The notes under the pieces: model-generated
Database searches by the model: none
Told to the model about the DNA's origin: nothing
The model's input: the letters and a program-made list of their open reading frames with translations, nothing else
In this document: piece by piece, positions 8,099 through 41,150 of the stretch
How positions within the stretch are numbered: the first letter of the stretch is position 1
Layout of the letters: every line of letters begins with the position of its first letter
NCBI RefSeq assembly: GCF_023168405.1
Contig: NZ_AP025285.1
Coordinates: 1,858,001-1,922,000, forward strand
Direction of reading: 5' to 3'
From: Leptogranulimonas caecicola
GTDB lineage: Bacteria > Actinomycetota > Coriobacteriia > Coriobacteriales > Atopobiaceae
Length of the DNA stretch: 64,000 nt
Translations under genes and position numbers: made by a program

Positions 8099-9817
8099 GT
8101 GACTCCCACCGTTTACTATCCCTGCAAATACGCGCCCATCGAGCTTTTGGCCGGCTACGGCGCTGCCTGCAAACCGGTTACCTACGAGGCCACTTCCTTT
8201 GAAGATGCCGATAGGCTCGCCCATCCCAACCTCTGCGGCTTTGGCAAGTCCCTCATCGCCTTTGCCCTGAAGCCCGAGGTCAAAGCCCTGGTGCTCACCA
8301 GCTGCTGCGACGTGATGCGCCGCGTCTACGACGTGTTGGATGCCGAGCAGTGCTTGGACTTCCTGTTCATGGTAGACCTCCCTCATCTCACCGGCCCTGC
8401 GGAGCGCGCGCGTTTGGCCTCCGAGCTTGAGCGTTTGACAGAGGCCTGGGAGCGCTATTCTGGCGAAGCCTTTGATGTAGGGGCTGCCCTCTCCTCCTTC
8501 GAGCCCCCGGTGGCCAGACAAGACGCCCGCGTCACCCTGTTGGGCGCCCATGGCCCTGAGTCGCTGCTTAAGGCTGCCGAGTCTGCCTTCGACCTGCCGG
8601 TGGAAAACCTCACCTGCACCGGTGGCCGCAGGGTGGCCTCTCCTCCAGCCTCGCTGGGTCGCGCCATCCGCGAAGAGGCGTGCCGCGAGAATTGCGACGC
8701 GAGCACACCGGCCCCAGACCCCAAGGAGGCGTTTATCGGCTGGTATGCAGGGGCATTGCTCGACCAAACCCCCTGCCTGCGCATGGCCGACATCTCTGGC
8801 CGCCAAAACCTCATTGGCACCCCAGGACAACGCGGCGTGATCTACCACACCATGAAATTCTGCGACTACTACGGCTTTGAGTACCTTATGGCCTCCCAGG
8901 ACGCCGTGGTTCCCATGATCAAGGTAGAAACCGACGGCACTCGCCAAAGCGCGGGCCAGCTCTCCACTCGACTAAAGGCTTTCGACGAAACGTTGGTAGG
9001 TATGACTGACACGCTCAAGTTTGATAAAGGCACCGGCCCCATTTACGTGTTGGGGGTGGATTCGGGCTCTACCTCGACCGATGCCGTCATCGTAGACAAA
9101 GACGGCACTCCTGTGGCCACGGTAATCCTGCCCACCGGCGCCAAAGCCACCGAGAGCGCTCAACGTGCTATCGACTCCGTGCTTGAGAAAGCCGGTCTCA
9201 CCCGCGACCAGATCACGCTGGCGGTGGCCACGGGCTACGGCCGCGACTCCATCCCCACCATGGACACCTCCATCACCGAGATCACCTGCCATGCCCGCGG
9301 AGCCCATGCCCTGTGTCCCGAGGCCATGACCATCGTGGACATCGGCGGCCAGGACTCCAAAGTCATCAAGCTGGACGAGGACGGCAATGTGGTGAACTTT
9401 GTGATGAACGACAAATGCGCCGCCGGCACCGGACGCTTCTTGGAGATGATGGCCCGCACCATGGAGCTGCCTTTGGACGAGTTTTGCACCCAAGGCCTAT
9501 CCTGGAAGCACGACGTGAAGATCTCTTCGATGTGCACGGTCTTTGCCGAGAGCGAGGTTGTAAGCCTGGTAGCCGATGACACTCCTGTGCCCGACATCAT
9601 CCATGGCCTGGATCGCTCGGTAGCCTCCAAGATCACCAGCCTTGCCAAGCGCGTGAAGGCCGAGCCTCCCTACCTCATGACCGGCGGCGTCGCCAACAAC
9701 GAGGGTGTGGTCACCGCCATTGGCGAAGCCCTGGGTGCGCCGGTAGCCACCAGCGAAGACTCCCAACTCTGTGGTGCCCTGGGCGCCGCTTTGCTAGGCT
9801 TGGAGGCCTTGGTCTAA
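8099..9817 (+). CDS. 2-hydroxyacyl-CoA dehydratase subunit fused to its ATP-dependent activase (HgdC/BadF-type)
   Basis: A 572-residue two-part protein with a GTG start preceded by AGGAG. Residues ~1-300 resemble a shortened dehydratase subunit ('YYPCKYAPIELLAGYGAACKPV', then 'GVIYHTMKFCDYYGFEY' and the closing 'ETDGTRQSAGQLSTRLKAF'). Residues ~313-572 are a BadF/BadG/HgdC ATPase: the phosphate loop 'GVDSGSTSTDAVI', 'VDIGGQDSKVIKL', and the two Cys that hold the bridging [4Fe-4S] cluster, in 'KCAAGTGRF' (Cys ~440) and 'MCTVFAESEV' (Cys ~479). They are 39 residues apart, as in HgdC. The activase injects one electron into the dehydratase at the cost of ATP. With the upstream gene this could supply a two-subunit dehydratase plus its activator. 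The fusion of subunit and activator is the unusual point. Confidence 0.85.
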   Translation: MTPTVYYPCKYAPIELLAGYGAACKPVTYEATSFEDADRLAHPNLCGFGKSLIAFALKPEVKALVLTSCCDVMRRVYDVLDAEQCLDFLFMVDLPHLTGPAERARLASELERLTEAWERYSGEAFDVGAALSSFEPPVARQDARVTLLGAHGPESLLKAAESAFDLPVENLTCTGGRRVASPPASLGRAIREEACRENCDASTPAPDPKEAFIGWYAGALLDQTPCLRMADISGRQNLIGTPGQRGVIYHTMKFCDYYGFEYLMASQDAVVPMIKVETDGTRQSAGQLSTRLKAFDETLVGMTDTLKFDKGTGPIYVLGVDSGSTSTDAVIVDKDGTPVATVILPTGAKATESAQRAIDSVLEKAGLTRDQITLAVATGYGRDSIPTMDTSITEITCHARGAHALCPEAMTIVDIGGQDSKVIKLDEDGNVVNFVMNDKCAAGTGRFLEMMARTMELPLDEFCTQGLSWKHDVKISSMCTVFAESEVVSLVADDTPVPDIIHGLDRSVASKITSLAKRVKAEPPYLMTGGVANNEGVVTAIGEALGAPVATSEDSQLCGALGAALLGLEALV

Positions 9818-11605: not shown

Positions 11606-12390
11606 TTAGGAGAAGGGGGTTTGAGGAGCGTCGGAAGGCCGCACTGGCGCCGCAGGAGCTGCCGTGGCCTCATGAGTCTCTACCACGTCCATAAAGACGT
11701 CTTCCAAAGACTCGTCGCCCAACACCTGATCGATGGGGCCAAAGGCGCGAAGCTGGCCTGCCTGAATGATGGCCACCGAGTCGCAGAGGCGCTCCACCAC
11801 CTCAAGCACATGGGACGAGAAGAGCACTGCCTTGCCTTGGGCGGCCCGCTCTTGAAGCATAGTGCGAAGAGTGCGGGTGGCTACAGGGTCGAGCCCACGA
11901 AGGGCTCGTCGAGCACCAGAAAGTCTGGGTCATGCACCAACGCCCCCATGACCACCAGCTTTTGCAACATGCCATGGCTATAGGAATCCGCGCGATCCGC
12001 AAGGGCATCTACCATCTCCAGGCGCTCTGCCAACTCTTGGATGACGCTTCTGCGCCGAGTGCTGTCCACCCCAAAGATGTCGCAGACAAACTCTAGGTAG
12101 GCCATGCCCGTCATGAACCCATAGACCCAGGGGGTGTCTGGCACGTACGCGAGATGCGTCTTGGCGGCGATAGGATCTTTCACCACGTCGTGGCCGCAAA
12201 TGGCAATAGACCCCTCGTCAAAATCCTGTACGCCCACCATAGCTTTGATGAGGGTGGTCTTGCCTGCGCCATTGGGGCCCACCAGGCCCAGGATCGACCC
12301 GGGTTCCACGGCAAGAGAATAGCCGTGAGCCGCCACTTTGGTGCCATAGCGCTTCACAAAACCGCGTACGTCAAGAATAGGGCTGGCCAT
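11606..12390 (-). pseudogene. ABC transporter ATP-binding protein, 1-nt frameshift after Walker B
   Basis: The start is at 12390 ('MASPILDVRGFVKRYG'), with AAAGGA upstream. Walker A is 'GPNGAGKTT' (residues ~38-46), the signature region is a degenerate 'YSHGMLQKL', and Walker B is 'FLVLDEP'. Immediately after 'DEPFVG' the frame ends in a TAG. Adding one base in the GAGCCC stretch (11891-11896) gives 'FVGLDPVATRTLRTMLQERAAQGKAVLFSSHVLEVVERL', a normal D-loop and H-loop His ending at 11606. The restored protein would be about 261 residues and pairs with the permease at 9888-11540. The deletion could be a true null mutation or an error in the assembly. Confidence 0.85.
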
Positions 12391-18107: not shown

Positions 18108-18396
18108 CTGGGGGCGCTCCCCCTGAGAGGCAGGCTTTCTTATTATTTACTGCCCTGATCGACACCGCGCATTTTCTTATAATATTAAGAAGATATATAT
18201 TATGAACATATAAGAGACCAAGACATTGTTGGGCACCCTGAGTGCAGGTTTTTCTCGGTAGGATTTGAGGGCTGCACAAAACGCGAGATCCCCACGCAAC
18301 AGCGTCATCGCGCAGGGATCCTTTAGATGTATTTTTATATTGTGCAAGTGATATCGACGACGGCATTAGGGCGCGTGCCGGCGACGAGCCTGAAGG
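18108..18396. other. AT-rich intergenic remnant upstream of the truncated surface gene
   Basis: A strongly AT-rich patch (18170-18215, with TATAATATTAAG) interrupts the GC-rich surroundings. It could hold a promoter or mark the deletion junction. A variant of the dispersed motif, TTTCTCGGTA, lies at 18251-18260. An imperfect stem GATCCCTGCGC/GCGTGGGGATC (18288-18322, minus strand) may terminate the upstream aminopeptidase gene. Confidence 0.45.
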
Positions 18397-31327: not shown

Positions 31328-34300
31328 CTATTGGCTGGGAAGCTGGTAAGTGTTCTTGGGACCGCGCTCCATTTGACCGCGTCGGCTGCCCAGAGTGAAG
31401 GCTTTGCGGATATAGTCTTCCGCCCCGGCCGTCAGGCGCTTGAACCCAAAGAGCTTAGAGACCGCACGAACCAAGGCATCCTGCCCCATCGGTCCACCGG
31501 AATCCTCCAAGACATCTAATGTCGCAGCGATGATCTCCTCAAGAGGCAGCTGCTCGGGCTTGCGACGGTCTGCAGGATCTTCCGTGACGCGATAGACGGC
31601 CCAGTTCTTTGGATCATCGGTTTTTCGCCATACCATGGAACGGCCTGCTGACGACACCTTCTTCGCCTTGAGCCTTTTGAACCCCGCTTCCAGTTTTGCC
31701 TGCACATTGCTTCCCATACGCGCCACGCAAGTCAACTCCAGGACGCGCCTAAAGAGCATCTCCTTCTCTATAGGAGCCTCGATGTCCACGATGGTGCCCA
31801 TGAGATTTGCAATTTCTACATCAGAGGCATCCACCAGGGCCTGACCGCCCTGGATGGGGACGACAACGCTAGCTTTTTGATAGGCGACCGCTCGGGAATC
31901 CTGTGGGCGCGTCTCTTGCTCCTGAGACTCTTGAACTGGGACATCCTGATCTCTGTCTTGGGAAGGTGTCTGTGTTGGCTCAGTGGGTGACGCGAACGCC
32001 GCCAGGATAGAGGAAGCCACCCTGGATTCCTCTTGCGCAGAAGCCGACGAGTTCTTGGAATGGACGCCAGTGATTTCACTGTCTCCAAGCTCGCCGGCCC
32101 ATGAGCTGTGCGCGGCAATGGAAGCCTCGGCTGGCTCGAGAAAGGCGGGCAGCGACGTGGGATCTGCAGCTATGGCGGCAGCGGGGTCGGAAGGAACGGG
32201 CGGCTTCTCCTGGATAATGTGCGGGGCGGCTGGGGCAACCTCGAACTCTGTGGTCGACTCAACGGCAGGCGCCTCGTGGGGCTCGACAGGCTGGGTCATC
32301 ATGGGCTGCATCGCCTCGGAAGATGGGTGCGATCCATCCAAAAGCGCGACATCATCTCCCAGTTCCCCTTCAAGATGGTTTACAAGCCTGTCGAGGAGAG
32401 CATCTTTGTCCTCCCACCATTCGGCGGACCAGATGCGATAGAGGTTCCATCCCAAACGACGCAGCAACTGCGGCTGCGCGAGCTCGCGATCCCTGGTAGA
32501 GGGGCTGGCAACGTAGTTGGGGCCATCCAGCAGGATGCCGATCAGGTATTTACATTTGTCCCGCGGATCGACCACTGCCAGATCCACCTTGAAGGAAGAG
32601 CGGCCCACATTCCTGTGCACCTCGAAGCCGCGGTCTTCTAGACGTTTGACCACCGCATCGGCAATGGCGTCGGTATGCTTCTTCTGGGCGATCTCATCAA
32701 GAGTGACCGCTCCAAACGCACCTCGCTGCGCGAATTCTAAGAAAGCCTTGAGCGCCGAGGGACCCATGGAAGAAGTTCTGTTGACATCGATATCTGTGGG
32801 ATCCATCGAGGAAAACACCATCATGGCAATCCTTGCACGGGTCACCGCCACATTGAGCCTGCGCCAGCCGCCTTCGCGGTTCACAGGGCCAAAGTTCATA
32901 CTCATCTTGCCTGTGGCATCCGGCGCATAGGTGATCGAGAACAGAATGACATCGCGCTCGTCTCCCTGGACGTTCTCCAGGTTCTTGATGAATACCGGCT
33001 CGTCTCCTTCGTTGGCCCAACACTCGACCACGGGATCTTTAGAACAGGCCTCTGCAAAGAGATCCTGTATCAACATCTGCTGGGGCACGTTGAAGGTGAT
33101 GACGCCCACCGTCTGGTGGGAATCCTCTGCATCATGGGCCCTGCGCACGAGCTCGGCGACGATGGCCTCCGCCTCTCCTGCATTGGTGCGGCTCTTGCCA
33201 CGATCAAAGAACCCATCAACCTTTTTATAGGAGACACGGCTTTTGCGATCGTCTACCGACGGGAAGGTGAGCATCTTCGATTCGTAGAAGCGCTTGTTGG
33301 AGAAAGCGATGAGGCTCTCGTGATTGCTCCTATAGTGCCATCTCAGATAAGCCTGGGGCAGATTCAAGGCCAGGCAATCCTCAAGCACCGATTCGAGGTC
33401 GGCCACCTCATCAAAGTCCTCCTCGCTCTCTTTTCCTTGGAAGAAACTAGTGGGAGGCATCTGGCGAGGGTCGCCCACCACCACTGCCGCCTTTGCGCGA
33501 GAGAGCGCACCCACGGCCTTGGCGGTCTGAAGCTGTGAAGCCTCGTCGAATATCAGGAGATCGAACTGATCGCCACCTACCTCCAGGTACTGGGAGACAG
33601 AAAGCGGGCTCATCAGGAAACAGGGGCAAAGTGAGCGCACCAGCGATCCGCACTCTTTCATGAGGGATCGAATGGAAGCACCGCGGCCTCGGCTGCGCAA
33701 AAGTCGCTGAAGGCGAGCTGCGCTTTTGTCGGTAATCGAAAGCTGAGTAAGATTGGGAAGCCTTTGGGCCACCCGATAATACACTTCATCGACAGCGAGG
33801 GCGCGCAGCTCTTGGTCGGCACGAGTGTATTGATGGACCAACTCCTCGAAACGGGTGCGCGAGAAGTCGTTGACCCCTTCGATGGTATCCATAGTCACCG
33901 TGACCATACGGCGGTAGACGCCCGCTTTGTAGCGCTCAGCCAGATCAGGGGTCACAGGATTGTCCGTCACGTAAGCCAAAAGGTCGTAAAGCCCCAGAGT
34001 CTCGGCTTTGTTCACCACCTGGCGCCAGTTCATCCAGTCGCGCAGATCACCCAGATGACCGGTGATCCGGCTCACATAGGATTCCTCGCCCTCAAGCCAT
34101 GTGGACACTTGGAATGTAGGGATGCGACCCAGGCGCGACTCCACTGGCAAGCGTGCCATCGTCACTTGACTGAGCCTTGCACGATAGCCCTCTACCAACT
34201 GCCTACCCTCAGCAGTGGCAACGAGGTTGTTGACCTTTACGCCAAGAGGCGTGTGCAACCCTTGGCCGACAAAGGCGCGGAGCGCATCGATGGCCTGGCC

Positions 34301-35128
34301 GATAGCCGCCCAATCGCGGGAAAGCCCCGTTCCGGGCCAGCTGGTCAGATAGGTTTCGAGCCCTGTGACCACGCGCAGGGTGTGGCGGGCCTGGGATTGA
34401 TACTCTTCCAGCTCGCGAAGGGCTGCCTCCACATCCTCTGGCTCCAAGGGACGCAGTGCCTCCAATGAAAGCCTGTGGGTTTCACGCTGCACCGCTTTCT
34501 TGCGGCCGAAAATCCCCTTCGCATTAGCCTCGACCCAGGCATCCTTGAACTCCACCACATTGAGCTTGAGCGCCGAGGGCTGCCAACGGCCAAGAAGCTC
34601 TTCTCGGCGAACTCTCAAAGTTTCCACCGAGCTCCTCATGGCTTCAAGCCTGCCCAAAAGCCCCTGGAGATCCTCGTCTGCCACCCACTGGGCAGGCACG
34701 CTCGTGTTTTTCACCACAGCATCCAACGACTGCCCTAAAGACAAAAGTCCCTCGATGGTGGTGGGGGTTTTCTCGGCAAGAGCCGAACATAGGGCCTCCG
34801 CCACAGGCTGTAGGAGACGAGCCTCCGAAATGTAGCGATCGAGCTCTTTGGGCAGCTCCTCCCTGAGCTCTTGGGAATAGGAAGAGGCGGTCACTGCCGA
34901 TAAGGGCGCCCCAGCCAAAGGGGCCCAAGGTTCAGCTTGGGCAATGAGGCGCTCGGCGGAGTTCATCTTGAACACAAAATCGTCAGGGGAAACGATGTGA
35001 TCGATGAATGAACGGCTCACCTCTAAGGGCTCAATCCCTTGGGCATAGGTCTCATAGCGCAGGATCTGCTCGCGCAACATGAGACCTGCAGCGTTCTCTA
35101 CCTTGAGGGCGCGGGCATAGGTGTCCAA
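31328..35128 (-). CDS. DUF4011-type superfamily 1 helicase, C-terminal part (helicase, nuclease-like domain, DUF3320)
   Basis: 1266 residues in the same frame as the upstream piece (35144-37435), separated only by a TAA. It contains the SF1 helicase Walker B region 'LLIFDEASQLQ', motif III-like 'VVVGDPRQMPPTSFF', later motifs 'VGVITFNVPQQMLIQDLF' and 'ENVQGDERDVILFS', and motif VI 'LNVAVTRAR'. A Vsr/PD-(D/E)xK-like domain follows ('GFEVHRNVGRSSFKVDLAVVDP', 'YLIGILLDGPNY', 'WNLYRIWSAEWW'; residues ~840-940). After a long disordered acidic linker comes a DUF3320-like domain ending 'KNTYQLPSQ'. On its own this piece lacks Walker A. Proteins of DUF4011-helicase-Vsr architecture have been reported in screens of antiphage systems; a defence role here is inference. 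Confidence 0.85.
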   Translation of the reverse strand: MDTYARALKVENAAGLMLREQILRYETYAQGIEPLEVSRSFIDHIVSPDDFVFKMNSAERLIAQAEPWAPLAGAPLSAVTASSYSQELREELPKELDRYISEARLLQPVAEALCSALAEKTPTTIEGLLSLGQSLDAVVKNTSVPAQWVADEDLQGLLGRLEAMRSSVETLRVRREELLGRWQPSALKLNVVEFKDAWVEANAKGIFGRKKAVQRETHRLSLEALRPLEPEDVEAALRELEEYQSQARHTLRVVTGLETYLTSWPGTGLSRDWAAIGQAIDALRAFVGQGLHTPLGVKVNNLVATAEGRQLVEGYRARLSQVTMARLPVESRLGRIPTFQVSTWLEGEESYVSRITGHLGDLRDWMNWRQVVNKAETLGLYDLLAYVTDNPVTPDLAERYKAGVYRRMVTVTMDTIEGVNDFSRTRFEELVHQYTRADQELRALAVDEVYYRVAQRLPNLTQLSITDKSAARLQRLLRSRGRGASIRSLMKECGSLVRSLCPCFLMSPLSVSQYLEVGGDQFDLLIFDEASQLQTAKAVGALSRAKAAVVVGDPRQMPPTSFFQGKESEEDFDEVADLESVLEDCLALNLPQAYLRWHYRSNHESLIAFSNKRFYESKMLTFPSVDDRKSRVSYKKVDGFFDRGKSRTNAGEAEAIVAELVRRAHDAEDSHQTVGVITFNVPQQMLIQDLFAEACSKDPVVECWANEGDEPVFIKNLENVQGDERDVILFSITYAPDATGKMSMNFGPVNREGGWRRLNVAVTRARIAMMVFSSMDPTDIDVNRTSSMGPSALKAFLEFAQRGAFGAVTLDEIAQKKHTDAIADAVVKRLEDRGFEVHRNVGRSSFKVDLAVVDPRDKCKYLIGILLDGPNYVASPSTRDRELAQPQLLRRLGWNLYRIWSAEWWEDKDALLDRLVNHLEGELGDDVALLDGSHPSSEAMQPMMTQPVEPHEAPAVESTTEFEVAPAAPHIIQEKPPVPSDPAAAIAADPTSLPAFLEPAEASIAAHSSWAGELGDSEITGVHSKNSSASAQEESRVASSILAAFASPTEPTQTPSQDRDQDVPVQESQEQETRPQDSRAVAYQKASVVVPIQGGQALVDASDVEIANLMGTIVDIEAPIEKEMLFRRVLELTCVARMGSNVQAKLEAGFKRLKAKKVSSAGRSMVWRKTDDPKNWAVYRVTEDPADRRKPEQLPLEEIIAATLDVLEDSGGPMGQDALVRAVSKLFGFKRLTAGAEDYIRKAFTLGSRRGQMERGPKNTYQLPSQ

Positions 35129-35143
35129 GAAACGCTTAAGGCG

Positions 35144-37435
35144 TTAGACTTCTTCGAGCTTGTGGGCGTATTCGTCGTTGGCTTCAACGGAGCCCAGCTC
35201 GGTGGCCGCTTGGATCTGCTCAAGCACATGATTGCGGGTGGCCTTGGTAGAGTGGAGCTCCAAGCAAAACGGAGCGAGCTTCAGGCGTGCCAGACGAGTC
35301 TGGACCACCTCCAAAGCGGCCATCTTCTCGGCCACAAAGAGCACCTTCTTGCCACGAGCCAGTGCATTCGCGATGATGGCGGTGATGGTCTGCGACTTTC
35401 CTGTTCCCGGGGGTCCATGGAGCACAAAACTTTGGCCACCCACAGCAGCCTGGATGGCAAAACGCTGGGAAGCATCGGCCTCAATAGGCAGCAGCAGCTC
35501 CTCTTGGCCCTCGCTGCCATCAAGATCCTCCGGCTGCCACGTGAGGTGACCCTCCATTAAGGAGTTTACGATGGGGCTTCTCCTCATGGCCTCCTCGCTG
35601 TTGCGCACGTCGCTCCACATGAGGAACTGACTGAAGGAGAAAAGGCCCAGCGCCGCATTCTCGATAACCTGCCAATCCTTCATGCCCAAGATGCGGTCCT
35701 TGAAAGTGTTGAGGACCAGCCGCGTGTCGATACCGTGCTCATCGTGGGGCAGGGGATCCAGGCCTGAGACGTTGATGCCAAACTCCCGCTTGAGCAACTC
35801 GACCAAGGTGATGTTGAGCAGGGGCTCATCGTCGCGCAAACGAATGACATACCCACCCGCACCGGGCCGTTTGACGATGTCGACAGGCAAAAGCATAAGG
35901 GGCGCAAGGCGCCGTGCGTTCCCTCGCTTGGGATCGACCCACAAAAGCGTTCCCAGCGTCATGAAGAGCGTGTTCGATCCTGTCTCCTCCAACGAGGAGC
36001 GTGCAGCCCGGAAAAGGTTGGTGAGATTCTTTTGAAGCGCACTTTCTGAGAACGCCGTGCGCAGGCGCCCCTCTTTAAAGTCACTGGACAAAAAGTCATT
36101 GTAGATTTCAGCGACGCCCAAGATACCGTAAGCCTCTTTGTCTGAAAGACCCTTCCACTCCGCCGGCTTCGGTGCAAGCACCAGATCTTCCGACTTGGCG
36201 AGAGCATCTTCGATCTCGTCCACTGATCCCGTAAGGATGGGCATAAGCCGGGGTCCCGGGCGCATGTTGAGCAGAGCGTTTCTTGAACTCAGGTCCAAAA
36301 GACTGCGCTCCCACACCTGCCGTTTCGTACGTGCGCCTTCCTCAACCTCCTCGAGAACGGCGGTGGAGACCACTCTGCGATCGGGACGACGGGCAGCAGA
36401 GAGATGGTCGTCTTTGGGCGCCTCGATATCCCATCCCTCAGCTCCCATAGCGCGGGCCGGGAGCGGTAAGAGCTGGCTCATCCGCGCACGATAGACATCC
36501 ACGGCACACAAGAATCTCTCGGGATCCAAAAGGTGCTCTTTGCCTGCAAACTCCGCAGCCTCAAAAGGTGCCCCGGAACCCTGCGCCAAAAGGGTGCATT
36601 CCACGAAGGTCATTTGGTCGATACCCTTTGCACTGCGCTTTACCAGCTCCGAGCAGTCATCGGTCACGATTTCGGGGAAGGATCGGTCCTCGAGCCAGAA
36701 GCCCGCAAAAGCGTGGCCCTCGACGATCACCACCAGGGGTCTGAGACCGCAGGCCTCAAGTGCAGAACTGTAAAGTGCCGCCAAATCAAGGCAGGTGCCC
36801 ATGTGCTGGGATAGCACGCTATCCGCAAGACGGATACGCTGTCCCGCATCAAACGAGGGCGGCGCCCCCACATAGACGATGTTCTGTTCCTGGATGGCGC
36901 GGAAGAGAGCAGCGCCCTGATAGCGCACACGCTCCACATCACCCGATTGATAGCCATCCAACGCCGAGGAACCGGTCCATTCCTTGAGGTACTCGGCAGC
37001 CTTGATGAGGATAGGGGCCAATGCTGGATGATTGGGGGTGACAAAGCAAGCGAGGAATTCTGGGACACCGTTCCACTGGTCAAAGGCCCAAAACACCATC
37101 TCAATGTTTTCAGACGCCAGGACCTCATTTTCCTTCCTCAGTTCAAATTTAATACCATCCAGCACGCGCTCGGTGATCTGCAAAAGCCTGTGAGTATCCA
37201 CCACCATGGAACGGCAGTCTACCTCTACCGTTTCTTGTGCAGGAATCACCGGCACAGGGGAAGTGCTGTCTACCATGAGGTCCGTGGCACTGTCGGCCAC
37301 AAGCTCAAGGTTTTCCAACGTCTTGTCGCTATGATTCTCGATGATCACCGACTCGATGGGCGAGGAGAGCGACTGCACCACCGAAAAGTTCACTATGGGA
37401 TTGCAAACGACATGCAGAGTGATGGATGAATCCAT
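35144..37435 (-). CDS. DUF4011-type helicase, N-terminal part (interrupted by in-frame TAA)
   Basis: 763 residues from the ATG at 37435 (GAGGGG upstream). After an N-terminal beta domain there is a transglutaminase-like segment, with Cys in 'HMGTCLDLAALY' and His in 'EGHAFAGFWLED' (residues ~210-260). A DUF4011 helical region follows ('RSLLDLSSRNALLNMRPGP', ~380). The start of the helicase core comes next, with 'RFAIQAAVGGQSFVLHGPPGTGKSQT', where Walker A is GPPGTGKS (~685). The frame ends after 'HKLEEV'. The codon is TAA, and the same frame continues 'RLKRFLDTYARALKV' without a shift, so a CAA-to-TAA change is the simplest cause. Whole proteins of this kind are about 2000 residues. If the stop is real, the helicase is inactivated. 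Confidence 0.85.
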   Translation of the reverse strand: MDSSITLHVVCNPIVNFSVVQSLSSPIESVIIENHSDKTLENLELVADSATDLMVDSTSPVPVIPAQETVEVDCRSMVVDTHRLLQITERVLDGIKFELRKENEVLASENIEMVFWAFDQWNGVPEFLACFVTPNHPALAPILIKAAEYLKEWTGSSALDGYQSGDVERVRYQGAALFRAIQEQNIVYVGAPPSFDAGQRIRLADSVLSQHMGTCLDLAALYSSALEACGLRPLVVIVEGHAFAGFWLEDRSFPEIVTDDCSELVKRSAKGIDQMTFVECTLLAQGSGAPFEAAEFAGKEHLLDPERFLCAVDVYRARMSQLLPLPARAMGAEGWDIEAPKDDHLSAARRPDRRVVSTAVLEEVEEGARTKRQVWERSLLDLSSRNALLNMRPGPRLMPILTGSVDEIEDALAKSEDLVLAPKPAEWKGLSDKEAYGILGVAEIYNDFLSSDFKEGRLRTAFSESALQKNLTNLFRAARSSLEETGSNTLFMTLGTLLWVDPKRGNARRLAPLMLLPVDIVKRPGAGGYVIRLRDDEPLLNITLVELLKREFGINVSGLDPLPHDEHGIDTRLVLNTFKDRILGMKDWQVIENAALGLFSFSQFLMWSDVRNSEEAMRRSPIVNSLMEGHLTWQPEDLDGSEGQEELLLPIEADASQRFAIQAAVGGQSFVLHGPPGTGKSQTITAIIANALARGKKVLFVAEKMAALEVVQTRLARLKLAPFCLELHSTKATRNHVLEQIQAATELGSVEANDEYAHKLEEV

Positions 37436-38524: not shown

Positions 38525-41150
38525 CTACAGGTTCTCCTTCTTGCGAGCGCCATAGGCCACACGCACGATGAGTGCGCCAAGGATCCCTGCAGCGGCCAAT
38601 GCGGCTGCGAGGGCGCCCTGAGACGACTCTGTGTCGCCCGTGGCGGGCACGGCATCGTTGGAAGCGGCGGGCTTGACGACCTTGGAACCGACTGCAGGCT
38701 GCCCCGCCTCGGTCTTTTCTGCCACAGGCCCTGTCGAGCCTCCCCCGTTATCTGCGGCAGGCTTCTCGTCGTCGGGAACGGGGCCTTCTTCGGCCACTGG
38801 CTCGAGCACTACCTCGATGGTGTGGTTGGAAGCCACGTCCTCGAAGGTGTAGGAGGCAGCCTCTGCCAGCTCAGGATGCTCCTTGCCGTCGATGAGCACC
38901 TTGGCCACCCGGTAGCGCACGCCGTCGCGCTCTCCGGCTGCCCAGGTCACAGTATGGCTCGCGCCCTCCATGACATCGGTGGTAGCAGTGACGGTGCCGG
39001 GACCTCCGGAAATGCTCGAAGCAACCTCATAGAAGGTCTTGTCGGCCAAAGACTCGCGCTGCTTCGGCGCCACGTCGTCGCCTTCGCTCTCCTTCTGCAC
39101 CTTGAGCTTGACCACGTACTCGCCGTCGCTCTCGAGGATGCTGGAGGGGATGTCCACGGCGGTTTGGCCAGGCGCCACAGGAACAACCACAGGATCGCCC
39201 GAGCCGCCCTTGGGATAGATCTCTACCTCGACGGGAGTGTAGCCCTCGGGCACCTCCCACTGGATCTTGGGCGGGTTGTCGGGATCGACGTCGTCGGGAT
39301 CAAAGATGCCTCCGCCAGTGATCTCGCCGGGGCCGCCATCCACCTGAGTCTCGATGTCCACGGTGGATCCCAGCGTCTCGGGAGTCACAGCCGGCTCGCC
39401 GTCCTTGGCGAAGTAGACCTTGATTTGATGGTCCTTGTCGATGTCGCGGATGCCCATATCCATGCGGGTTGTGCCTGTGAGCAGCGGCTCGATGATCTCC
39501 TCGGGGTTGAACACCGCTGCAGGAATCTCTGCGGCATAGGCCTTGGTCATCGTTGCCGAGAAGAGCTCCTCCAGCAGGGTGGGCTCCTCCTCGGGTTCGT
39601 CAGTCTGAGAGGCAGTGTTGCTGGCAGGCGCTTCTTGCTCGAGCTTGTTGGTCTGAGCCACCTCGATCTGAGCAGCCTCTTCGCCCGCGTTATCCTCTTC
39701 GCTGGCAGGCTGATCTTGAGGAATGGCCAGCGTTTGGAGTTCAGGGGCTTCGGAGCTGGCGTCTTCGCCCCTAAGGGCATCGGCGATCGCAGCTGACAGC
39801 GCTTGAGGGGACGGGGCGTCCTTCTCGGCAGCGGTCGAAGGATCCTCTGGAGCCGTCTTGGGGGCCGCATCGAGCTCTTGGCGCAAAGACGGGCTCTTCT
39901 TGATGCCTTCGCGGTAGACCTCTTTGCCGTCGATCTCCAGATAGGTGATGCGGGAGCCCGCATTGGCCTGAGCGCTGATGTCTACGTAATGATTGCCCTT
40001 GTACACGGTCTTGGAGGGCTTGGCGGTGCCGTCGCCGTACTTGAGAATGGCCACATTGAAGGTCACCGGGCGCAGCTTTACCACCACCTCTTGGTTCTCC
40101 TTGATGTTGGTGAGGCTCACATCGCTGGCATCGCCATCCACCGCAGTGCCATTCACAGAGACGCTTTCGACCTCGTACACCGCGTAGGCGGGATCGTCGC
40201 GGTCGGCGGTGGTTTGGATCACAGGATTCCAGGCCACAGTGTAGCTCTCACCTTTGGCCACAGTGGAGCCGCCGGTAATGGTGCCAGGGCCGCCCTCGAT
40301 CTTGGTGGAGACCACCACGTTGTCGGGAGCGAGGCCGGTAGTGCCGTCTTGGGCTTCGACCACGATATCCACCACATGGTTGGCAGCGATGGCGGAGAAG
40401 TTGTAAGAGCCTGCCGCCACTTGATCCAGGCTCAGCCTGGCTCCGTCCACCGAGACGCTCTTGATGACATGGCCTTCTTTGACAGACCATGTCACCGCCT
40501 CAGAGGAGCCGGCGGCCACCGCCATGGAGTCGGAGGCCTCCACGCCTTTGGAAACGCCATAGGTGTTCACAGTGATGGTGTAGTAGCCCTTGGTGGTGTG
40601 GGCGGGGATGAGAGGGATCTCTGCCAGGGTGACCACCACAGAATGGTCTCCAGAAAGGTGCGAGAACTCATAGCGGCCGCCTTTGGCATCCACGCGGCGG
40701 CCGTCCACCTCGACGCGGGAGACGTAGGTATTCTCGCCAGGAGCCCACACCACGGCGGCAGAGGCACCCTTCACCACATTGGCGCTCGGGCTGATGGAGG
40801 CGCCAGTGGTAATGCCGCGCAGCTGCGTGGTGATGGTGTAGGTAATCACCGGCTCGTCCACCACGTTGGTGTCGGGGATGCCGTCATCGTCTGCGTCGAT
40901 GTTTATCTGCGGTTTTGGCGGGTTGGCAGGATCGATCTTAGTGGGATCCACAGGCTTGGGCTTGCCATCCCGCCGCATAGCCGGAGCCCAGGTTGGCGCC
41001 CGGGAAGTTGACCCACTCGCCGAAGACCTCTTTGAGGTCGATGTAGGTGTCAGCGGCGTAGGCATTGATTGGCGCAGCAAACGCAGCTGCCACCGACAGA
41101 GCAACGGCAAGCAGCATGCTTGCGATGATCTGCCGAGGTTTCTTTCCCAT
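38525..41150 (-). pseudogene. Sortase-anchored surface protein with Ig-like repeats, 1-nt frameshift near the N-terminus
   Basis: The real start is at 41150 (AAAGGGG upstream): signal peptide 'MGKKPRQIIASMLLAVALSV...NAYA', then 'DTYIDLKEVFGEWVNFPG'. After 'GSGYAA' the frame breaks at CCC (40969-40971). Dropping one base joins it to 'DGKPKPVDPTKIDP' and a frame that runs to the end, about 874 residues in total. A calcium-loop-like 'DADDDGIPDTN' (thrombospondin type-3 style) follows. At least four repeated Ig-like domains come next, each with 'xxGPGTxTxxxxVxxGxxxxVxW' and 'VSVDG/VEVDG' turns. An acidic Ala/Glu-rich linker lies at ~480-580. The sorting signal 'VPATGD', a helix and 'RKKENL' end the protein. 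Confidence 0.8.

Follow-up and report, generated by a model that had tools for sequence, protein, structure and literature searches.

The closest described system is the anti-phage ProA family of NCBIfam (NF058533). Our literature search gave no paper describing ProA, and the putative anti-phage role of the gene studied here therefore rests, by analogy, on the name of that model. PDC-S37, a candidate family of PADLOC, and Hhe (NCBIfam NF042953, PADLOC Hhe), a sister family with the DUF4011-helicase-nuclease layout in common, are the other defence models nearest to it. The helicase core is similar to that of the Upf1-like SF1 helicases (IGHMBP2, Sen1 and DNA2), to which the ProA-like family adds a helical insertion of ~515 residues, DUF4011 and nuclease modules. 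Here we describe a ProA-like gene with an in-frame stop codon in a 64,000-nucleotide stretch of the Leptogranulimonas caecicola genome (contig NZ_AP025285.1, positions 1,858,001 to 1,922,000), referred to as the window.

Results

An in-frame TAA divides the ProA-like reading frame

The stop codon is a TAA at 35144-35146 on the minus strand and occupies codon 764 of a 2,035-codon frame (Table 1). The minus strand around it reads ...CTC GAA GAA GTC TAA CGC CTT AAG CGT TTC TTG GAC..., and the earliest candidate start past the stop is the TTG at 35128. This reading confirms the original prediction that the two pieces share one frame, with 15 nt from the stop to the first possible start. The stop had also been placed between Walker A and Walker B of a single gene of ~2000 residues, which is borne out by the frame, the Pfam matches and the motif positions. 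The upstream product has Walker A without Walker B, the downstream frame has Walker B without Walker A, and the AAA_11 domain is split by the TAA, with its N-terminal stretch before and its C-terminal stretch after. Pfam found the DUF4011, the SF1 helicase halves, the Vsr-like nuclease and the DUF3320 that had been proposed, all in order. A transglutaminase-like segment belonged to the same proposal; Pfam recognises none, although a conserved Cys/His block is compatible with the idea.

Table 1. Features of the ProA-like locus (window coordinates)
Feature	Position	Strand	Basis or remark
Accessory segment	31307..37524		Sister species G001 has unrelated DNA instead, with a gene for a 1,400-aa surface protein
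ORF1, N-terminal part of the ProA-like protein	35144..37435	-	ATG 37435, 763 aa, closed by TAA
Same-frame continuation past TAA, 1,271 codons	31328..35143	-	Closing stop 31330-31328
DUF4011 (PF13195)	35792..36301	-	Pfam, E 9e-39; before TAA
Walker A, GPPGTGKS	35393..35416	-	Invariant among aligned relatives; before TAA
All-helical, poorly conserved insertion, ~515 residues, motif I/Ia to Walker B	33629..35176	-	Conservation profile and structure model
Walker B, DEAS	33536..33547	-	Motif alignment with relatives; after TAA
AAA_12 (PF13087), C-terminal helicase part	32807..33391	-	Pfam, E 4e-19; after TAA
MTES_1575 (PF18741), Vsr-like restriction endonuclease domain	32372..32659	-	Pfam, E 1.5e-25; after TAA
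DUF3320 (PF11784)	31700..31831	-	Pfam, E 2.5e-8; after TAA

Conservation among the aligned relatives falls sharply past residue 750 and recovers near residue 1250, and the TAA sits at the start of this all-helical insertion, the most variable stretch of the protein. A structure model spanning residues 630-1560 (mean pLDDT 83.8, pTM 0.54) places codon 764 within the first long helix of the insertion, a helix that is predicted with confidence.

The coding signal flanking the TAA exceeds chance. In a scan of a sampled 464 kb of this genome, judged by eye, no other stop has so strong an in-frame coding signal on its two flanks, and the remaining sites resemble gene ends, adjacent genes or antisense frames.

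The read-through product belongs to the ProA family

The read-through product scored 1811 bits against NF058533 (cut-off 1500) over nearly the whole model. The halves scored 803 bits (model positions 1-758) and 985 bits (764-1738); these matches are consecutive, and both fall below the cut-off. Two intact relatives scored 1836 bits (L006) and 1733 bits (L033). Both the score and the domain order of the read-through product are those of a ProA protein, in agreement with the link to anti-phage defence that had been predicted from the architecture. The one departure is from an uninterrupted chain: codon 764 is TAA and the relatives are single-chain, and the gene is therefore classed as a broken, not a working, member of the family.

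Relatives encode a single chain

Single-chain relatives 42-51% identical to the protein are present in five genomes of the same family or class, and a wider scan collected 80 loci across many phyla, nearly all of them single chains. Earlier searches with the window protein, a first scan of genome contigs and a scan of viral contigs, found no relative, and a near search in E. coli gave nothing. None of the aligned relatives has a stop at the position of codon 764. Relatives encoding two separate proteins, named in the original prediction as the finding that would speak against a broken gene, were looked for, and none with two genes at the junction was seen.

The nearest relatives have Arg (CGC or CGT) at the position of the stop, and 14 residue types occur there overall. 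Conversion of CGC or CGT to TAA needs two or more steps, and seven sense codons (AAA, CAA, GAA, TCA, TTA, TAC and TAT) are one step away. The site is variable across relatives, and the specific C-to-T change from CAA to TAA that had been suggested is a guess that the relatives do not support.

An apparent single lesion elsewhere in the gene was found in 4 of the ~81 relatives examined (~5%). These are a TAA in Paenibacillus lactis (L043), an independent TAG at 9350 in a Paenibacillaceae metagenome-assembled genome (L054), ~20 codons past the site that corresponds to codon 764, and frame breaks in two others (L081 and L105). Because these four relatives each carry a lesion of their own, one-hit loss appears from the sequences to recur in the ProA family, and the rate of defence-gene loss would be measurable if the lesions are true.

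The gene occupies an accessory segment

The genus is represented by one other genome, that of the sister species G001, and it lacks the ProA-like gene. The G001 flanks align at 88.6-96% nucleotide identity (about 95%), and the two genomes encode phosphofructokinase-like and MgtC-like proteins of 100% identity next to the segment. Between the flanks, 6.2 kb with the ProA-like gene here stands against ~4.5 kb with the surface-protein gene in G001. Because the flanks align while the 6.2-kb segment is replaced, sequence comparison indicates that the gene is accessory in the lineage. A defence island was considered and rejected on the immediate surroundings of the gene: those adjoining it in the window resemble metabolic, transport or surface-protein genes, and the replacement in G001 is a surface protein.

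Gene decay in the genome is at an ordinary level

Conserved positions are violated at 6.5% after the stop and 8.1% before it, and neither value lies outside the spread seen among other members. The helicase and catalytic motifs are intact. There is no extra decay at conserved sites and the motifs are intact; therefore the TAA is either recent or an error.

The genome stretches examined total ~624 kb before overlaps. The automatic listing of frame switches was too noisy for frameshift counts, and comparison with G001 over 224 kb was used in its place. Of the 146 sister genes in this region, 118 have intact counterparts in the present genome, and most of the others are absent, truncated or mis-started. 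The clear breaks relative to G001 comprise one nonsense change, two frame breaks located at C runs, and surface-protein genes that differ in length. The gene for an M20-type peptidase (L176, ~1828460 of the genome) has TGA where the sister has TGG, and G001 has at least one nonsense change of its own. Gene decay, as far as the compared sequences tell, is ordinary in this genome.

The stop had been contrasted with three frameshifts as less easily dismissed as a homopolymer error. Of the frame breaks found here in the window, two lie at C runs. At ~1412 (ORF 632-2026) the break is at a seven-C run in the gene of a coiled-coil secreted protein whose C-terminal part is different, and open, in the sister; at 11897 the frame of an ABC-transporter ATPase gene is broken, with CCC in place of the sister's CCCC, and the frame is open in the sister. 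A further break does not conform: the surface-protein gene at 40903-40963 is ~2.1 kb shorter than the sister's, its signal peptide and the remainder of the protein lie in different frames, and the break near 40,963 looks like a deletion junction, not a homopolymer slip. At 18136-18138 the sister has ~2.5 kb of additional DNA at the same point.

Start signals and tRNAs

The true start, ATG 37435, has a strong ribosome-binding site with a duplex energy of -9.9. No ribosome-binding site was found at TTG 35128 (duplex energy +0.4), and the value for ATG 35080 (-2.9) is average, the median of internal start-like codons being -3.05. On the strand of the gene, a promoter scan had no hit close to the junction. 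A UAA-reading anticodon was absent from the 51 tRNAs found, and ARAGORN assigned sense anticodons only to all 51 matched loci. A second, low-scoring tRNA-Trp (29 bits; L154 12323-12395) is present in the genome. The original prediction had advised a search for a suppressor tRNA or a second start at 35128, and the tRNA search and the start-site energies revealed neither.

Discussion

The stop, the single-chain relatives and the accessory position are direct observations, and so is the absence of a suppressor tRNA and of a start signal for the second piece. We infer loss of function, recency and an anti-phage role, and consider that the gene is probably an accessory anti-phage gene of the ProA family that a single, recent nonsense mutation has put out of action. 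The translated product would be a 763-residue fragment with the N-terminal region, DUF4011 and Walker A, and the remaining helicase and the nuclease would be unmade or made in traces only. The intact protein, by analogy with the family, may be an ATP-driven helicase-nuclease that acts on phage DNA. The proposal of defence decay by point mutation, refined to the recent decay of a defence gene that is accessory, agrees best with the frame, the ProA match and the single-chain relatives. The lack of further decay would also fit a consensus error or a functional arrangement.

The most serious competitor is a consensus error at the TAA, in which case the strain would carry an intact gene. We regard this as possible but clearly the less probable reading: the 6.1-kb gene has no further lesion or extra divergence, and the two frame breaks at C runs, which the comparison with the sister showed in this window, could mean an imperfect consensus, but the TAA is a substitution and not a change in run length, the 464-kb coding-signal scan has no other clear case, and most sister genes of the region compared have intact counterparts.

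A working split or recoded gene is unlikely, since a dedicated second start, a UAA-decoding tRNA and a break conserved in relatives are all lacking. Reassembly of two chains had been thought conceivable. Both pieces could be made and assemble as a split enzyme, given that the break falls at the start of the variable insertion and that ribosomes could physically reinitiate 15-66 nt downstream; we consider this very improbable, because TTG 35128 has no ribosome-binding site and ATG 35080 is about average, no relative with two genes at the junction was seen, and the break lies within a confidently predicted helix. A functional TAA, at which rare termination-reinitiation would yield a two-chain ProA with a helicase switched by chain assembly, is likewise very improbable. 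Read-through by a suppressor tRNA or recoding, which had also been entertained, would give some full-length protein, and any inserted amino acid would be harmless at a site that takes 14 residues in relatives. No UAA-reading anticodon occurs among the tRNAs found and the relatives share no conserved element around the site, which leaves read-through an equally slight prospect; TAA is also not generally known for read-through, which counts against it too.

Recent nonsense inactivation, the preferred explanation, would make this locus one more case in which a lineage still carries an accessory defence gene but has lost its function through a single change. Among the known systems, Hhe membership is rejected, as 702 bits is far below the 2000-bit cut-off. 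The resemblance of the helicase core to the Upf1-like helicases consists of sequence matches to SMUBP-2 at residues 654-746 and Sen1 at residues 1279-1541. The two halves align with successive stretches of the PDC-S37 model (324 and 760 bits), and this match is interrupted at the stop. ProA is the system most like this one, matched over nearly its whole model when the stop is read through and differing in that the gene here is split as encoded. Nonsense inactivation is an ordinary event in a known defence family and involves no new mechanism.
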